Of a stretch of DNA of 64,000 nucleotides, positions 42,297 through 49,257 are shown piece after piece. The translations under genes and the position numbers were made by a program. Position 1 is the first letter of the stretch. The number at the start of each line of letters is the position of its first letter. The notes below the pieces were generated by a model. That model saw nothing but the letters and a program-made list of their open reading frames with translations, was not told where the DNA came from and ran no database searches. The DNA is from a virus, in the IMG/VR virus record IMGVR_UViG_3300032401_000001, positions 1 to 64,000 of that record. One strand, written 5' to 3'.

Positions 42297-43262
42297 TCAT
42301 CCCCTGTCCATTGGTCTAGTTCCACCACGTACCGACGGTGGTGCCATCGTCGTGCTGGGATTCAAAGGTGGCTGAGTGCGCTCCTGCAGCGTTTTCTGCG
42401 GCGTTGTGGGTGGTGGCGCGGCTGATGTCGTCGGCGTCGGTGCCGTTGATGTTGCTGCGGGTTGAGCGGCGGGCTTCTCGGGCGCCGGCGCCGCCACCTG
42501 CAACTTCTTGGTGTCCGGCGTCGCAGCTGATGCCAACCCGTAGGGGCCACCGTCAGTGAACGGCGTCTTCAGCTTGCAGGGCGTACCCGCCGCCGGCGTG
42601 TAGATGACGTACTGCATCGGAATGAACTGGAACTGGAACGTCGCCATCATCTGCGTCTGGGCACTCAGTCCCTGGTTGTGCATGATGAACACACCCGAGA
42701 CGATGACGCTGTCGTAGCGCAGTCGTGCCAGCTTGCGCCGGCGCGCCAACTGCGTGCTGCGCAGGATGTCACGGTACATCCGCAGCATCCAGACGCGCTG
42801 GTCATCTTGGTAGGTGTTGAGGAGGACGCCACTGTAGGAGAACGTCGGAGCCCTTTGCCCGAAGGTGTAGACGACGAAGTTGTCACTGAGGGACTCGACG
42901 ACTTGGACCTTCTCTTGAAAGGATTCCTGAACGTCCGTCAGCAGAAAGTCGATGAAACCGGTGCCACCGGCGGCGCCTTTGGCCGCGCCACACAGCACCT
43001 GCGCCAGCTGCCGCGATTCTGGTGGGCAAGACTTGACGAAGTTGAGGCGTTCTTGAGCTGTACCGATGTCGATGTAGAGCCGCGCCATCGTCTCGCGGTA
43101 CTCAGCGTCGCGCGGCCCCTTGTTGATGGCGTACTTCGGGGTAGCTCCCGGATAGTCGGAGAAGACTCCGAGGACGGTCTGTGGGCCGTTCTCATCGATG
43201 TAAGGCGGTGACCCGAAGGTTTCGAAATCCCAACCACCCGGGATGATGCCAGGAAGACCCAT
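42297..43262 (-). CDS. Tail protein with Pro/Thr-rich tail
   Basis: A 321-aa protein. Residues 1-220 look folded, with a FSYSGVLLNTYQDDQRVWMLRMY-type stretch broken here as FSYSGVLLN and WMLRMYRDIL, common in tail proteins of large myoviruses. The last 80 residues are Pro/Ala/Thr low-complexity. It starts just after the small 43264 gene. Confidence 0.75.
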   Translation of the reverse strand: MGLPGIIPGGWDFETFGSPPYIDENGPQTVLGVFSDYPGATPKYAINKGPRDAEYRETMARLYIDIGTAQERLNFVKSCPPESRQLAQVLCGAAKGAAGGTGFIDFLLTDVQESFQEKVQVVESLSDNFVVYTFGQRAPTFSYSGVLLNTYQDDQRVWMLRMYRDILRSTQLARRRKLARLRYDSVIVSGVFIMHNQGLSAQTQMMATFQFQFIPMQYVIYTPAAGTPCKLKTPFTDGGPYGLASAATPDTKKLQVAAPAPEKPAAQPAATSTAPTPTTSAAPPPTTPQKTLQERTQPPLNPSTTMAPPSVRGGTRPMDRG

Positions 43263-43263
43263 C

Positions 43264-43470
43264 CTACTGCTCCTGCGGCGTGTCGCCGAGCTCGATCACT
43301 ATCTCGCCGGTGTTGTAGACCACGGCGAACGCTAGCTTGTAGAGCGACGGCAAAGCGAGATCAGCGTCTTGCCGTCGCCGCAGGTTGTTCATGATGTTGT
43401 CGTTGGCCAGGCGCAGCAAGCTCCGCGGCGTCGGCATCGTGAGCTGGCGAGTCGGTTGGTTGGCCATCAT
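43264..43470 (-). CDS. Small hypothetical protein
   Basis: A 68-aa protein between the tape measure and the 321-aa tail protein. ATG 43470 overlaps the tape measure stop (TGATG); ATG 43467 is also possible. Ends in an acidic tail. Function unknown. Confidence 0.68.
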   Translation of the reverse strand: MMANQPTRQLTMPTPRSLLRLANDNIMNNLRRRQDADLALPSLYKLAFAVVYNTGEIVIELGDTPQEQ

Positions 43471-46400
43471 CAATCCTTCGTCGCTCGACCCACCGTGTGC
43501 GCTACGGCTGAAGAGCGCAAGTACTCCGAAGTCTTGCGGAGGTCTTCCGTCGCCGCGCGGAATTCCTTTACGTCACGGCCACTGAGACCAGCTGCGCGTC
43601 CCGCCTCATCGCCGAACTTCTCCAGCTTGTCGGCTTGTTTGCGCGCCGCACGTTCACCGGCTCCACCAACGCCCTTACCACCGACACCTTCGCCACCGGC
43701 CTCGAATCCGCGTCGAACCAACTCAGCGCGTTTTTTCGGATCCTTCTCCGCTTCTTCTACGATAGCGGCTCGATCGTTGCCGGTCTCTGCCGCGATGACA
43801 TCCGCACCCTTCTGCAACGCCATGGCAGTGCGCACGCCCTCACTATCGCCTCTCACCTTCTGGGTCGCAGCAACTTGCGCTTCGCTACTCAGTCCCGCCA
43901 TCGTCTGGCCGAACTGGCGCAGTGCTTGTTGGATCTCAGGATCACCGGGTCTATTCTCCGGTTTACGCGCGTCTTTCCGCAGTCGGTCGTACTCACCCGG
44001 TTTGCCGGCGAGACGCGCTTTCACGGCGTCGCGAAGCTTCGTCGCGTTTTCGCTGTCACCTTTAGCGTCGAGCGCCTCTGCGGACGCCAGTAGCATGAGG
44101 TTGTCATCCTCGGTGCGGATGGCGAATTCTTCGAAGCCCTTCACACCCTTCTCTGAGATCCGTGTCGCCCGTCCTATCACAGCACCGATGACGGCGCCTA
44201 CAGGTCCCGCAGCTAAGAGACCGGCAACGGCACCGGTACCGGTAGCCGTACCAGTTTCACCAAGGAATGTGCGCGTCTTTTCAGCCTGCTCTTCTGCTTG
44301 TTTCTGAGCTTCCTCGAGATTGCGGGCTCGCTTGCCGGTATACGCTTCTTGCGTCGTAGTCAGAGCCCCCTTGGCGGCAGCCCCGCCTTCGTGTCCCAGG
44401 CGCCCCATGACGACCTCACGAGCACCCTGATCCCATTGCTTCGCCGCGGCGTCAGCATCGACACCTTCGCGACTCGCTGCAGCGATGAAATGCTTCTTGG
44501 CTTCTTCGTCACTCAGGGTCTTCGCGCGGCCCGCGAATGGAATGACGGCGCCCAAGCCTTGAACTTGCGCCAACTCCTGTCGTTTCGCCAGCGTACCGCT
44601 CATGCGGTCCACGATGGATTGCATCGTATCGGCGTTCACTTCACCGCCACCACCACCACCACCCCGTTGTGCCGCGTTGAGAGCTTCGATCTGGGCTTGT
44701 TGCGCGCGGGCCATTTCACCTTCGCCCATGCCCATGCCCTTGGAGATGCCAGCACCGAGCTTGGTCACATCCTCAGCTTCACGCCGCAGCTGTTGGGCAA
44801 AGGTTTCACCGCCCTTGATCTTTTCAATAGCCCTGCCCGCTGTGCTGATGCCACCGCCCATCATGAAGCGATCGGCACCACCGGCACCAAACATGTTGGC
44901 GGCCCAGGGCGCGTATTCGGCAACTTGGCCCCACGTGCCACCACGGGCACGCGCCCACTGAGCAACGTTGGATTCGCGCGCTGCGGATGCTTCTGGAAGA
45001 ATGGCCGTACCGACGCCTACCATCGCAGCTTTACCTAAACCACCACCAAAGGCCATCGGCAGAATGTCTTTCGCGCCACCGTACATCGAAGACAGTTCTT
45101 CCCAAGCCGTAAGCGGCGTGTCACCGCGGGTCGGACGCAGCCCTCCCGCAGCACCGCGGGCACGTTCCCAACCCTTGTCGGTGAGCATGTTCCGTTCAAG
45201 GACGCGTTGAGTTTCGCGATTCTCGACAGACAAGCGCTCTGAGGGACGTACAATCTGCGCACCTGTGGTAGTGCGATCACTTCCCGTCCACCACGACGCG
45301 ACGTCGGTACGCAGACCGCGGTACATCTCCCCGAGGCCACCACCGACACGCCCGAGTTTCTCCCCAGCTTCATAGACGGGCCGGAACATCTCGCGCCGGG
45401 TCGCGGCGGCACCGGCGTCGATGACGTTCTGCCGCCGTTCCATCTCCTCTTGGCGCATGCGGGGGATGTCGGCACGAACTTGCTGGGCCGCCGCCCGCCA
45501 GACATCGCGGTTCCCCGCCATGAGCTCGAGGTCGCGCGCCTGCTGCGCTCCCATCCCCAGCTGTTGCAGTGCACTGCCGAGACCGATGTTGCCGCCAAAC
45601 TCGCGCTGTACGTTCATGCCTTGCCGGATGAGCATCATCTGCATGCCCATCGGCCCCAGGCGGCGTCCCATCTCGTCGGCCAGTTCCCGCTGCCGCGAGG
45701 TGAACTCTGAGATCACGCGCTCTTGTGAAACTCCGCCCATCTGGGCCAGCCGCGAGATGTTCGTCGCGGCTCCGGACGCTTGTTGCGACAGCGAAGCGCG
45801 GCCGGACTGCACGTCTTCCAGGCGTTCCTGATCGATCGTCAACTCACCCTTAGCCCCGCGGGTCAGCATCGACATGAGCGGGTAGCGCATGTTGAGCATC
45901 GCCGCCTGGCCTTCCATCATCGTCTGGGCCAGACCCTGGCGACCACCGGCGAGCGCGAGTTGCTGCGGGGTGTAGGTGCCGACGGCTTCAGCTTGCCGGG
46001 CCATGCCGTAGGCGCCCATGCCGGCCTGTGCTCCCAGCCCAGCGGTGAGCCCCGCTTGCTGGAACATCATGCCGCCGTGCCGGCCCGCCGTTTCCATCAG
46101 CGCCTGGGGGGTGGTGCCCGCCATGCGCGAGAAGAGCTGCGCGTTGCGCGCCGCGACCATGGTCTCAGGAACCGAAAGACCCATCGCCCGCATGCTGGCC
46201 ATCGATTGCATGGCCTGCTGTACGTCGGGACTCTCGACGATCATCATGAACTGGCGTACCGCCCGGGCGATGTTGCGCACCTGGCCGGAGATCTGCTCAC
46301 CCGACTGCGCCATGTCCATCATGCCGCGTTGACCAGCGATGTTCGTGATGCGCATCACGTCGCGCATGTTGAACTCGCTCATCTCGCCGCCTTCGACCAT

Positions 46401-47384
46401 CTTCTGCATCTGCCCCGCCGTTTGCACGGCGGCGCGCTGGGTCAGGCCCCGTCCCAGCGGGTGCAACTGTGGACCCGTGACCACGAACTGCCGGGTCATC
46501 TCTTCGAGTTGCTGGCCGTAGGCGCGTTGCCGAACCATCGGGTCAATCGCCGCTTCACCGATGCGCGTCAAACCCAGCGGCTCAGCCCCGAGTGCCCCGG
46601 CTACGCCACCGCCAAAGAATCCCAGTGCGGCCCCGCGCGCACCTCCCATACGAGCGCCCAGAGCTGCACCACCCAGCGCGCCGGGAACCGACCCCGCCAA
46701 CGTCGGGGTCACCGCCATCGCCTGGGCGAAGGCGCGGTTCCCCATGGTCTCCTGCTGCATCTGCTCACGGAACCATGGTTCACCGAAGCGACCACCTGGT
46801 GCCGGACCACCGAAGACCTGTGGCAGCATGCCACCCAGCTGGGGTCCGCCGGGGAAGAGCGGCATGTACGGCTGCGGGATGAACGGCGCCGGCATGGGCG
46901 CGTTGAAGCCCACGGGTGGCACCTGGGGCTGCATCAGCGCGCCCGGAGCAAAGAGCTGGTTCGCCGGTAAGCCGGGGCGGTACATCGCCATCGCCGCCGG
47001 GGTCTGGTAGATGGGGCTGGGAATACCACCGGGACCCGGTAGGCCCATGGTAGGTGTGCCTCCCGCTTGGGTCTGCGCCATGTACTGCGCGATCTGTGCG
47101 GGCAGGTAGTTCTGCTGGATCTGCTGTAGACGCTGGGAGAAGTCGACGGCGAACTGGTTCTGGACCTGGCTATGCTGGTGGGCGGCCTGTACCTGGGTCT
47201 GCATCTGCGCCGCCATCTCTGCGGCGACCTGCCCCGGGTGCTTGGTCTGCGGTTGCTGGAAAGCTTGTGCTACCGGTCCGCCGAATCCTTGAGCACCGCC
47301 GGACGTAGGCAGCAGCCCGACCTGGGCGGCCATGCTGTTGAACCCGGTGATGATCTCGCGCAGGTTCTGGGTCGCGTCGGCCAC
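43470..47384 (-). CDS. Tape measure protein (probable)
   Basis: The longest ORF of the tail block, 1304 aa. It is Ala/Gly/Gln/Met-rich, with long helical parts, a Pro/Gly-rich N-terminus, hydrophobic Gly-rich membrane-like segments (GAALGFFGGGVAGALGA; GAVAGLLAAGPVGAVIGAV) and coiled-coil C-terminus. Length would set tail length. It lies directly after the two chaperone-like ORFs, as in most tailed phages. Identification rests on size, composition and position. Confidence 0.75.
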   Translation of the reverse strand: MADATQNLREIITGFNSMAAQVGLLPTSGGAQGFGGPVAQAFQQPQTKHPGQVAAEMAAQMQTQVQAAHQHSQVQNQFAVDFSQRLQQIQQNYLPAQIAQYMAQTQAGGTPTMGLPGPGGIPSPIYQTPAAMAMYRPGLPANQLFAPGALMQPQVPPVGFNAPMPAPFIPQPYMPLFPGGPQLGGMLPQVFGGPAPGGRFGEPWFREQMQQETMGNRAFAQAMAVTPTLAGSVPGALGGAALGARMGGARGAALGFFGGGVAGALGAEPLGLTRIGEAAIDPMVRQRAYGQQLEEMTRQFVVTGPQLHPLGRGLTQRAAVQTAGQMQKMVEGGEMSEFNMRDVMRITNIAGQRGMMDMAQSGEQISGQVRNIARAVRQFMMIVESPDVQQAMQSMASMRAMGLSVPETMVAARNAQLFSRMAGTTPQALMETAGRHGGMMFQQAGLTAGLGAQAGMGAYGMARQAEAVGTYTPQQLALAGGRQGLAQTMMEGQAAMLNMRYPLMSMLTRGAKGELTIDQERLEDVQSGRASLSQQASGAATNISRLAQMGGVSQERVISEFTSRQRELADEMGRRLGPMGMQMMLIRQGMNVQREFGGNIGLGSALQQLGMGAQQARDLELMAGNRDVWRAAAQQVRADIPRMRQEEMERRQNVIDAGAAATRREMFRPVYEAGEKLGRVGGGLGEMYRGLRTDVASWWTGSDRTTTGAQIVRPSERLSVENRETQRVLERNMLTDKGWERARGAAGGLRPTRGDTPLTAWEELSSMYGGAKDILPMAFGGGLGKAAMVGVGTAILPEASAARESNVAQWARARGGTWGQVAEYAPWAANMFGAGGADRFMMGGGISTAGRAIEKIKGGETFAQQLRREAEDVTKLGAGISKGMGMGEGEMARAQQAQIEALNAAQRGGGGGGGEVNADTMQSIVDRMSGTLAKRQELAQVQGLGAVIPFAGRAKTLSDEEAKKHFIAAASREGVDADAAAKQWDQGAREVVMGRLGHEGGAAAKGALTTTQEAYTGKRARNLEEAQKQAEEQAEKTRTFLGETGTATGTGAVAGLLAAGPVGAVIGAVIGRATRISEKGVKGFEEFAIRTEDDNLMLLASAEALDAKGDSENATKLRDAVKARLAGKPGEYDRLRKDARKPENRPGDPEIQQALRQFGQTMAGLSSEAQVAATQKVRGDSEGVRTAMALQKGADVIAAETGNDRAAIVEEAEKDPKKRAELVRRGFEAGGEGVGGKGVGGAGERAARKQADKLEKFGDEAGRAAGLSGRDVKEFRAATEDLRKTSEYLRSSAVAHTVGRATKD

Positions 47385-47387
47385 TGT

Positions 47388-47768
47388 CTATTCATCCTTG
47401 TGCCAGGGCTTGTCGATCCCCTTGCGGGCGGCGGTACGGCGTGCGGCAAGACGTTGTTCGAAGACTGCTGCACGTCGCTGCTGTTCCGTATTGTCCTCCT
47501 CCTCACTGAAGGAAGCAACCCGCTCGAGCAGGCGCGCATCCCGCATCGCTACTTCTCGTCGCAGCTTCGACTCGCGCTGTAGGTCTTGCAAGCGGCGTTC
47601 GATCTCCTCCGGGTTGAAGATGGTCCCGAAGATGGCCAGTGCGAGCTCCTCCTCCAACCGGCTAACAAAGGCGGCCCCGGCACCGCGCAGCAGCCCAGTG
47701 AGCATACGTCCGGTGTGCACCGTCGTGTAGTACGACGCGATGCGTTCACGCTCGAGCGTCTCCTGCAA
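47388..47768 (-). CDS. Tail assembly chaperone, downstream (T-like) part, probably made by -1 frameshift
   Basis: 126 aa are counted from TTG 47768, the first possible start, but that codon has no ribosome site. The frame is open further upstream and runs, in the -1 frame, into the end of the 47852-48541 gene; read through a -1 shift at the TTTC before the TAG stop, it adds 155 residues (from CTA at 47855). The sequence is charged and helical. The pair lies just upstream of the tape measure, the place where gpG/gpGT-type frameshifted chaperones occur. Independent translation from TTG is the alternative. Confidence 0.65.
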   Translation of the reverse strand: MQETLERERIASYYTTVHTGRMLTGLLRGAGAAFVSRLEEELALAIFGTIFNPEEIERRLQDLQRESKLRREVAMRDARLLERVASFSEEEDNTEQQRRAAVFEQRLAARRTAARKGIDKPWHKDE

Positions 47769-47835
47769 GATGCGATCTTGGACCGAGCCACGAGGCGGCA
47801 GCGAGAGACCCCGAGCGCGGAGGGACGCCCGTGCA

Positions 47836-47858
47836 TAGCCCCGCGGCTGGGCTAGAAA
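47836..47858 (-). other. Candidate -1 programmed frameshift site with hairpin
   Basis: On the minus strand the upstream chaperone frame ends CAT TTC TAG. If tRNA-Phe on TTC slips back one base it re-pairs with TTT and the next codon is CTA, giving entry into the downstream frame. A perfect 6-bp hairpin TAGCCC/GGGCTA with a 7-base loop starts at the stop codon itself (47854-47836). The site is not a canonical X XXY YYZ heptamer, and the hairpin is closer than usual. Confidence 0.45.
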
Positions 47859-48541
47859 TGCTCGGCGACTCCTTCACGCATGATCGCCAAGACGAGCCGA
47901 TCGAACTCGGCCAGCTTGACACTGATCTTGGCGAAGAGCGCGCTGGGCATGCGTTCGACGTAGTGCAGCCGTTCGTCGAACAGCTTGTGCGAGGCCTTCT
48001 CTTCCGTGTCAGCGGTGCTGAACGAGAAGCGCCGACCGTTGGGACCGTTGATGGCGGCGAGCGAAGCCGCGACGTTGTAGCGGATGATGATCTCCTGCTG
48101 CACGTCCTGGTAGATCGGTTGCTGAGCCTGCAGAGCGGCGTGGAGGCGCAACGTATCGAGATGCGCGCGGGTGCGGAAGATCACGCTGGTCCGCTTCGTC
48201 AGCGGGTACTCCTCCTCGTGGTAACCCTTCATCAGCAGATCGTCGATGATCTCCGCCGCTTTCGACTGCTCAATCTTCTGCTCCTCGAGGAACTTGGCGT
48301 AGTCCCGCACCGGCAACAGCGCCTGGCTCATGTCCTCGTACAGCGACAGGCGGCCCTTCGCTTCTTGTTCCTGCTTCGCCGCCTCGGGCGGCAGCTGCGT
48401 CGTGTCGTCGGTGGTCTTCTCGGTGGTTGCAGTGGTGGTGGCGGCAGGTGGCGTTGGTGGCGTTGCCGCGGTGGTCTTGTCACCGGGACGCACGAAGTCG
48501 CCGAGCTTGGGACGTGCTGATGTGGGTTCTGACGTGGTCAT
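47852..48541 (-). CDS. Tail assembly chaperone, upstream (G-like) part
   Basis: A 229-aa protein. The first 60 residues are low-complexity Pro/Thr; the rest is helical with a pattern (RYNVAASLAAING, then MPSALFAKI, KLAEFDRLV) seen in chaperone-like proteins before phage tape measure genes. GGAGG lies some 12 bases before ATG 48541. It is the first gene of the 21-kb minus operon; the gap before it carries a perfect dyad at 48598-48612. Could also be another small tail-assembly protein. Confidence 0.68.
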   Translation of the reverse strand: MTTSEPTSARPKLGDFVRPGDKTTAATPPTPPAATTTATTEKTTDDTTQLPPEAAKQEQEAKGRLSLYEDMSQALLPVRDYAKFLEEQKIEQSKAAEIIDDLLMKGYHEEEYPLTKRTSVIFRTRAHLDTLRLHAALQAQQPIYQDVQQEIIIRYNVAASLAAINGPNGRRFSFSTADTEEKASHKLFDERLHYVERMPSALFAKISVKLAEFDRLVLAIMREGVAEHF

Positions 48542-48597
48542 GTTTGTATGCGTCCTCCGTTTTGTGGTATGAGCTTAGGTGTCGCGGTCCTTCGTAT

Positions 48598-48612
48598 CTT
48601 TACGGCGTAAAG
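48598..48612. repeat. Dyad CTTTAC-N3-GTAAAG in the divergent gap
   Basis: A perfect copy (spacer GGC) lies in the 137-bp gap between the minus tail operon (start 48541) and the plus transglycosylase gene (48679). Placement between divergent operons suits an operator or promoter element. Confidence 0.7.
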
Positions 48613-48678
48613 TAGCCGTCTTCGATAGCAACAACAGACGACACTTACACCCCACAAGGTAAGGGGGACCGAGGACGA

Positions 48679-49257
48679 ATGCAACAGCTCATCGAACTGC
48701 TGTTTATCCTGCTGCGCCTATGGGCACCGTTGCCGACGGCAACTATCCCGGCTGAACCGCTCGAACAACGGGCCTTCCGCCTCACCCAGAACGATCGCTA
48801 CGACCCGCTCATCCTAGTCGCCGCGCAAGAATGGAAGATCGATCCCTTCCTCTTTAAGGGGTTGCTCTTCGCTGAGTCCGGCTTCAAGCCACAGAAGATC
48901 AACCGACTCGGTGCTGCGGGGATCGCTCAGCTGACGGGGGGTGGACGTACCGGTGTCCGCAATGTGCGCTGCATGCGTGGCTTGTGCCGATCTTTCACGT
49001 TGCAAGACGCGCTCAATCCAGAGACTGCGATCCCGGCGGCCGCAGAGTTGCTCGCGTATCTGCGTCGCACCTGTGGTGAAGACCGCATGCTCTCCGCCTA
49101 CAATACAGGCAACTGCAAAGCTCGAGTTCGCGTCTTCGTCAGGGTGGTGACGCAACACACGAACCGATTTCGTACCCTCGGTGGTTTGCCGCCGCTATCG
49201 CTACCACCGACGCGTCCTTCTCGTCTACTTGCCCAGCAGAACCCCCCGAACAGCTGA
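48679..49257 (+). CDS. Lytic transglycosylase (SLT-like)
   Basis: A 192-aa protein with an N-terminal hydrophobic segment (LIELLFILLRLWAPL) that may be a signal or anchor. The SLT fold shows E66 in LLFAESGFKP, GAAGIAQLT and AYNTG. It would cleave peptidoglycan, perhaps late in infection. First gene of the right plus-strand block; GGGGG and GAGGA lie upstream of ATG 48679, and the dyad 48598-48612 precedes it by 66 bp. Confidence 0.82.
   Translation: MQQLIELLFILLRLWAPLPTATIPAEPLEQRAFRLTQNDRYDPLILVAAQEWKIDPFLFKGLLFAESGFKPQKINRLGAAGIAQLTGGGRTGVRNVRCMRGLCRSFTLQDALNPETAIPAAAELLAYLRRTCGEDRMLSAYNTGNCKARVRVFVRVVTQHTNRFRTLGGLPPLSLPPTRPSRLLAQQNPPNS

Follow-up and report, generated by a model that had tools for sequence, protein, structure and literature searches.

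Predicted -1 frameshift between two putative tail assembly chaperone genes upstream of a presumed tape measure gene in a group of large phages

RESULTS

Gene layout of the locus

The window analysed here is the whole stretch of 64,000 nucleotides at positions 1 to 64,000 of IMG/VR virus record IMGVR_UViG_3300032401_000001. The 197.8-kb record encodes a DNA polymerase, a primase, a helicase, a ribonucleotide reductase, and a baseplate-wedge/Baseplate_J-like protein, a gene content that indicates a large phage, probably contractile-tailed. No tRNA gene was found within the 64-kb window. Two ORFs on the minus strand lie directly upstream of a presumed tape measure gene, and the coordinates given for them in an earlier note on this DNA were right. 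The features of the locus are listed below.

47852..48541, minus strand: ORF1, putative G-like tail assembly chaperone, 229 aa, ATG at 48541, C terminus ...EGVAEHF followed by TAG; homologues in all loci
47388..47873, minus strand: ORF2 open frame, putative T-like extension, in the -1 frame relative to ORF1
47855..47858, minus strand: candidate slip tetramer T_TTC, abutting the ORF1 stop TAG (47854-47852); TTC can re-pair as TTT
47855..47861, minus strand: position of the heptamer of relatives, G_CAT_TTC in the window versus A_AAT_TTY, G_GAT_TTT, or G_GGT_TTT
47869..47874, minus strand: internal Shine-Dalgarno (SD)-like AAGGAG, 10 nt before the tetramer
47786..47848, minus strand: predicted downstream hairpin with a 63-nt span, outer 11-bp stem formed by 47848-47838 with 47796-47786, starting 6 nt after TTTC
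47836..47854, minus strand: 6-bp hairpin TAGCCC/GGGCTA, competing with the larger hairpin
43470..47384, minus strand: presumed tape measure protein, 1304 aa, GTG start at 47384, assigned by position, length, and conserved neighbourhood
42297..43262, minus strand: conserved tail-module gene 3' of the tape measure gene, the bait by which relatives were found

ORF1 ends with GAG CAT TTC TAG, and a slip from TTC to TTT would let reading continue with CTA GCC CAG. The first ORF2 codon after such a shift would be CTA at 47855, and 155 aa (LAQPR...KDE) would be added, resulting in a predicted ORF1-ORF2 fusion of 384 aa; the reading frames thus bear out the size and the HF-LAQPR junction that had been put forward earlier. 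The proposed site just before the tape measure gene was likewise upheld, the tape measure of the window being recognised by its length, position, and neighbourhood, without a naming family match. Next to the chaperone genes of the window, no gene for a tail tube or sheath protein could be recognised. ORF1 is the first gene of a minus-strand tail operon and is divergently oriented to its neighbour, a plus-strand gene starting at 48679 (window 48541-48679), which matches transglycosylase and endolysin families.

Related loci

When ORF1, ORF2, and the tape measure protein were themselves used as queries against phages, viral contigs, and bacterial genomes, a single near relative (L027) was found, and among 22 matches to the junction DNA pattern in viral contigs this same relative was the only one of use. 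The tail gene downstream of the tape measure gene, used as bait, gave 10 loci, then 32, and then 8. Upon removal of duplicates there were 34 distinct loci with ORF1 and ORF2, counting the window, Salmonella phage Arash, and Vibrio phage D69 (33 besides the window); 31 loci entered the main slip-site table, with L072 to L074 outside it, and 27 loci entered the alignment. The relatives of most use for comparison were the following.

L027, contig IMGVR_UViG_3300032799_000664: near relative, same three genes as the window at 77-88% identity
L037, Salmonella phage Arash, OQ632216.1, 1622-2538: gp2/gp3, A_AAT_TTC then TAA, -1 arrangement
L038, Vibrio phage D69, OZ195729.1, 1536-2395: gp2/gp3, A_AAT_TTC then TAA, -1 arrangement

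In the records of Arash and D69, two separate hypothetical proteins are annotated and the fusion is missing. The window and L027 formed a pair in a tape-measure tree, with L028 (A_AAT_TTC) as sister; the tree was a quick one with long branches, and this grouping alone was taken from it.

Conserved coding potential of ORF2 from the predicted slip point in the -1 frame

In all 34 distinct loci ORF2 was in the -1 frame and ran back into ORF1 (with an overlap of 22 nt in the window). The earlier note had described this frame relation, had found ORF2 to be without a good start codon, and had proposed a comparison of the overlap in related phages; that comparison sustained both observations, the relatives having a conserved frame relation and no clear start for ORF2. 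In the window, the first ATG, GTG, or TTG past the ORF1 stop is the TTG at 47768, 83 nt downstream. Across loci the first such codon was found anywhere from beside the stop to more than 110 nt downstream (50 nt in L027 and >110 nt in L034, L064, and L066), with no conserved place.

Over the 26 codons past the slip site in the 27 aligned loci, the -1 frame was free of stops in every locus, whereas the other frames contained stops in 8 and 12 loci. Mean pairwise identity over these codons was 0.43 in the -1 frame and 0.23 in the other frames, and the coding signal across the 27 loci was confined to the -1 frame. Readthrough of TAG in frame 0 was rejected on the stops and the lack of conservation in that frame. 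The conserved ORF2 protein started at the slip codon (FL..P....R), ahead of any start codon in most loci. Between the window and L027, ORF2 was 88% identical, with differences located on third positions of the -1 frame and a ratio of 42 synonymous to 18 nonsynonymous codon changes; in the other two frames the ratios were 10 to 52 and 4 to 58. In one locus (L055:2646-6011) the ORF2 frame was open for 1121 codons, through ORF1 and farther upstream, which is probably an effect of high G+C content.

Slip site

At the end of ORF1, 29 of the 31 tabulated loci carried one of three heptamers, A_AAT_TTY (15 loci), G_GAT_TTT (11 loci), or G_GGT_TTT (3 loci), with a stop codon directly after the heptamer in all loci but L036. 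In that locus (L036:5404-5461), the sole one of its kind in the main set, the ORF1 stop lies a few codons past the heptamer. The remote loci L072, L073, and L074 carried A_AAA_AAG (at positions 2739, 3000, and 3029, respectively) with the stop next to the heptamer or one codon beyond it; this is a heptamer of the dnaX type, in which the slip codon is Lys instead of Phe, and the -1 relation was retained.

G_CAT_TTC was found in the window and L027 only. The U_UUC tetramer before UAG is kept in these two phages and P-site re-pairing is gone (CAT to GCA). The window therefore holds no X_XXY_YYZ heptamer, only the tetramer, whereas the heptamer was canonical or near-canonical in all relatives but L027. 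A Z_ZZN tetramer with cognate A-site re-pairing (U_UU.C) is present in phase, as T_TTC at 47858-47855 in the ORF1 frame. The slip codon TTT was invariant in the 27 aligned loci. That TTTC-TAG permits a one-base slip of tRNA-Phe from TTC to TTT had been noted earlier, and this site proved to occupy the same place as the heptamers of the relatives. The earlier description of the site as nonclassical also stood for the window, where there is a tetramer; the comparison adds that the site is a degenerate A_AAU_UUC and not one of unknown type. Since the tree pairs the window with L027 and places L028, with its A_AAT_TTC, as their sister, loss of the P-site half appears to be derived. On comparison of these sequences, the ancestral heptamer was A_AAU_UUC, and G_CAU_UUC is its degenerate descendant.

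The window and L027 both carry ATGCGTGAAGGAGTCGCCGAGCATTTCTAGCCCAGCC, with no difference. The last 10 codons of ORF1 were identical in DNA between the two, the longest such run among the 190 codons compared; upon shuffling of codon states, a run of this length had a chance of about 0.002, for which dual coding in the overlap accounts in part. The arrangement is not due to chance, since all 34 loci have ORF2 in the -1 frame, TTT is invariant in the 27 aligned loci, and the 10 codons are identical in DNA to those of L027.

Candidate stimulatory signals

The mean folding z-score of 60-nt windows across the 31 loci was -1.63 just after the stop and near 0 elsewhere, and the 63-nt hairpin of our window had a folding z of about -2.5 to -2.8. 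Changes between the window and L027 in the outer stem preserved pairs (C-G to U-G and G-U to G-C), as did one change in the inner hairpin (G-U to G-C). The start of the hairpin was 4 to 8 nt past the motif in most loci and 6 nt past it in the window. In the clade with GGATTTT, a 9-bp stem was present in 92.9% of cells. None of 500 shuffles reached the covariation score of this stem, and sliding of the partner destroyed the signal. A single consensus stem for the whole 27-locus alignment was not found, because the stem register differs between clades.

The earlier note had proposed a 6-bp hairpin at the stop. TAGCCC/GGGCTA is indeed present, but the stronger 63-nt hairpin uses the same GGGGC. 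As the main stimulator the 6-bp hairpin was rejected, as it would lie partly within the ribosome during decoding of TTC and is weaker than the conserved hairpin. Upstream, complementarity to the anti-SD sequence across the 31 loci was strongest about 15 nt before the heptamer, which suggests selection for an SD-like RNA signal, the complementarity arising partly from conserved Glu-Gly codons. Stimulators are placed, by published rules, with an SD-like element 6 to 17 nt upstream and/or a hairpin start 4 to 10 nt downstream (PMC4066793), and in the window AAGGAG lies 10 nt upstream and the hairpin 6 nt downstream. The stimulators are most likely the 63-nt hairpin together with the upstream AAGGAG.

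Protein identity

Searches of Pfam and PHROGs gave no usable match for ORF1, ORF2, or the tape measure protein, weak family matches such as MRP-S33 and NUDE_C being taken as chance, and PDB sequence profiles gave matches at chance level only. The AF2 model of ORF1 had a mean pLDDT of 81 and was confident over residues ~81 to 222 (ten-residue blocks from 81 to 220 at 90 or more). Its top PDB match was the HK97 tail assembly chaperone 2ob9 (E 0.024, with a high match probability), with a modest TM-score by target of 0.48. Rhodococcus phage Finch supplied one of the best matches among viral models, its tail assembly chaperone (E 8.5e-4, with a match probability at the top of the scale). In the Finch record a tail assembly chaperone is annotated as a CDS joined from two pieces, immediately ahead of the tape measure gene, with the short form beside it and a -1 relation between the pieces; at 291 aa, the matched model has a length in keeping with the joined form. 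Both matches have modest scores, and the HK97 and Finch matches, as two independent lines, agree and point the same way. The model of ORF2 was all helical and gave no meaningful structure match. A chaperone function is probable for the products of ORF1 and ORF2.

DISCUSSION

A -1 frameshift at TTTC/TAG very probably yields, besides the 229-aa G-like chaperone, a minority 384-aa GT-like fusion. Most ribosomes would translate ORF1 and stop at UAG, releasing the 229-aa protein. A minority would move one base back on U_UUC, with tRNA-Phe passing from UUC to UUU, most probably aided by pairing of the anti-SD sequence with AAGGAG, by the downstream hairpin, and by slow termination at the adjacent UAG, and would read on through ORF2 to make the fusion. 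The slip may take place with UUC in the A site or with UUC in the P site while UAG waits; the product would be the same, and sequence gives no choice between the two. On the lambda model, the G part would be expected to attach to the tape measure protein, with the T part bringing in the subunit of the tail tube. The arrangement of the ORFs, the -1 frame, the slip codon and stop, the stimulators, and the coding of ORF2 from the slip point are conserved among the loci compared. That slippage occurs, its rate, and a single-tRNA slip at the window's own site are what we infer from this sequence record. The earlier proposal of a -1 frameshift joining two tail-chaperone ORFs thus finds support in the frame relation of all 34 loci, in the heptamers of the relatives, and in the modest resemblance of the ORF1 model to known chaperones.

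Independent translation of ORF2, in which ribosomes that terminate on ORF1 re-initiate at the internal TTG (47768) or at a CTG and no fusion is made, would be consistent with the presence of that TTG in the window and of a TTG 50 nt downstream in L027, and GenBank starts ORF2 of Arash at an internal ATG. We consider it very unlikely, as the start has no conserved position and lies beyond 110 nt in three loci, conservation of the protein sets in exactly at the slip point, and slip heptamers and the -1 relation recur among relatives. Other routes into the frame (a +2 shift, a hop over the stop, or transcriptional slippage) gain from the fact that -1 and +2 are indistinguishable by frame arithmetic; they are the least credible of the alternatives given the textbook -1 heptamers at the same place in relatives. 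For transcriptional slippage, moreover, a run of three T is too short.

Decay of an ancestral frameshift in the clade of the window, with G_CAU_UUC nonworking and ORF2 being lost, fits the tree, on which the P-site half was lost as a derived change, and in the window and L027 alone. This reading is even less likely than re-initiation: ORF2 is 88% identical in the two phages with mostly synonymous changes, and both have kept TTTC with the TAG next to it, as well as the SD-like element and the hairpin. In pea enation mosaic virus (PEMV; G_GAU_UUU), moreover, mutants in which P-site re-pairing was blocked kept 36 to 40% of wild-type frameshifting, whereas an altered U run reduced frameshifting to near background (PMC4737148). 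The Z_ZZN tetramers prone to shifting in Escherichia coli include U_UUC, which ranks below A_AAG and above U_UUU among single-tRNA tetramers; these sites need a stimulator (PMC4066793). To judge from its letters, the window retains the parts that those experiments call essential and is without the part called helpful. With P-site re-pairing gone, frameshift efficiency at the window's site may be low. The preferred reading, a working -1 frameshift, probably extends to the lineage of the window in this form: a two-tRNA A_AAU_UUC site became a one-tRNA G_CAU_UUC site, at which the fusion is still made by a slip of a single tRNA-Phe, perhaps in the P site, with support from the SD-like element and the hairpin.

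The kind of system is ordinary, a -1 frameshift of the lambda G/GT type. Tail assembly chaperones G and GT of lambda, with their conserved -1 frameshift upstream of the tape measure gene, have been reviewed (PMC5009743). As in lambda, two overlapping ORFs stand directly before the tape measure gene, the second in the -1 frame and startless, with a short and an extended product predicted; unlike lambda, the slip site of the window abuts the stop and is a tetramer, not a heptamer, and searches of Pfam, PHROGs, and PDB sequences detected no similarity for the proteins of the window. Finch, a phage with a tail sheath, similarly has its chaperone (gp46/gp47) annotated as a -1 CDS in joined form just ahead of the tape measure gene, but its slip site is away from the stop and its likeness to ORF1 is by fold only. 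The gp2/gp3 pairs of Arash and D69 share arrangement and homologous proteins with the window and differ in having the canonical A_AAT_TTC in place of G_CAT_TTC.

The site of the window resembles Z_ZZN tetramer sites of the IS3 type (Sharma et al. 2014, PMC4066793) in its U_UU.C phase and in the spacings of SD and hairpin; those sites come from insertion sequences and reporters, whereas that of the window is in a phage tail gene, directly before a stop. Umbra-, diantho-, and luteoviruses (PEMV, GRV, and BYDV) use AAAUUUU, GGAUUUU, and GGGUUUU, as do the phage relatives, and share with the phage loci an adjacent or nearby stop, a spacer of ~6 nt, and a bulged hairpin (PMC4737148), the PEMV signal including a nearby stop, a 6-nt spacer, and a bulged hairpin. 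These are unrelated plant RNA viruses using eukaryotic ribosomes, and the likeness is apparently a convergence of layout only.

What is new is the phage group covered, with the fusion unannotated in Arash and D69, and what is unusual is the one-tRNA slip site of the window. The set of phages with frameshifted tail chaperones would thereby gain a further group of large phages that had gone unannotated, among them cultured phages of Salmonella and Vibrio, and two families of hypothetical proteins can be given likely roles as the G and GT parts. The natural sites number more than 30; in 31 of them the A site has the same Phe codon, with four codons found in the P site, and the collection forms a natural experiment on the weight of re-pairing by each tRNA in bacterial -1 frameshifting. 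If the reading of the window's lineage is true, nature would here provide an example of a two-tRNA site that became a one-tRNA site under selection.
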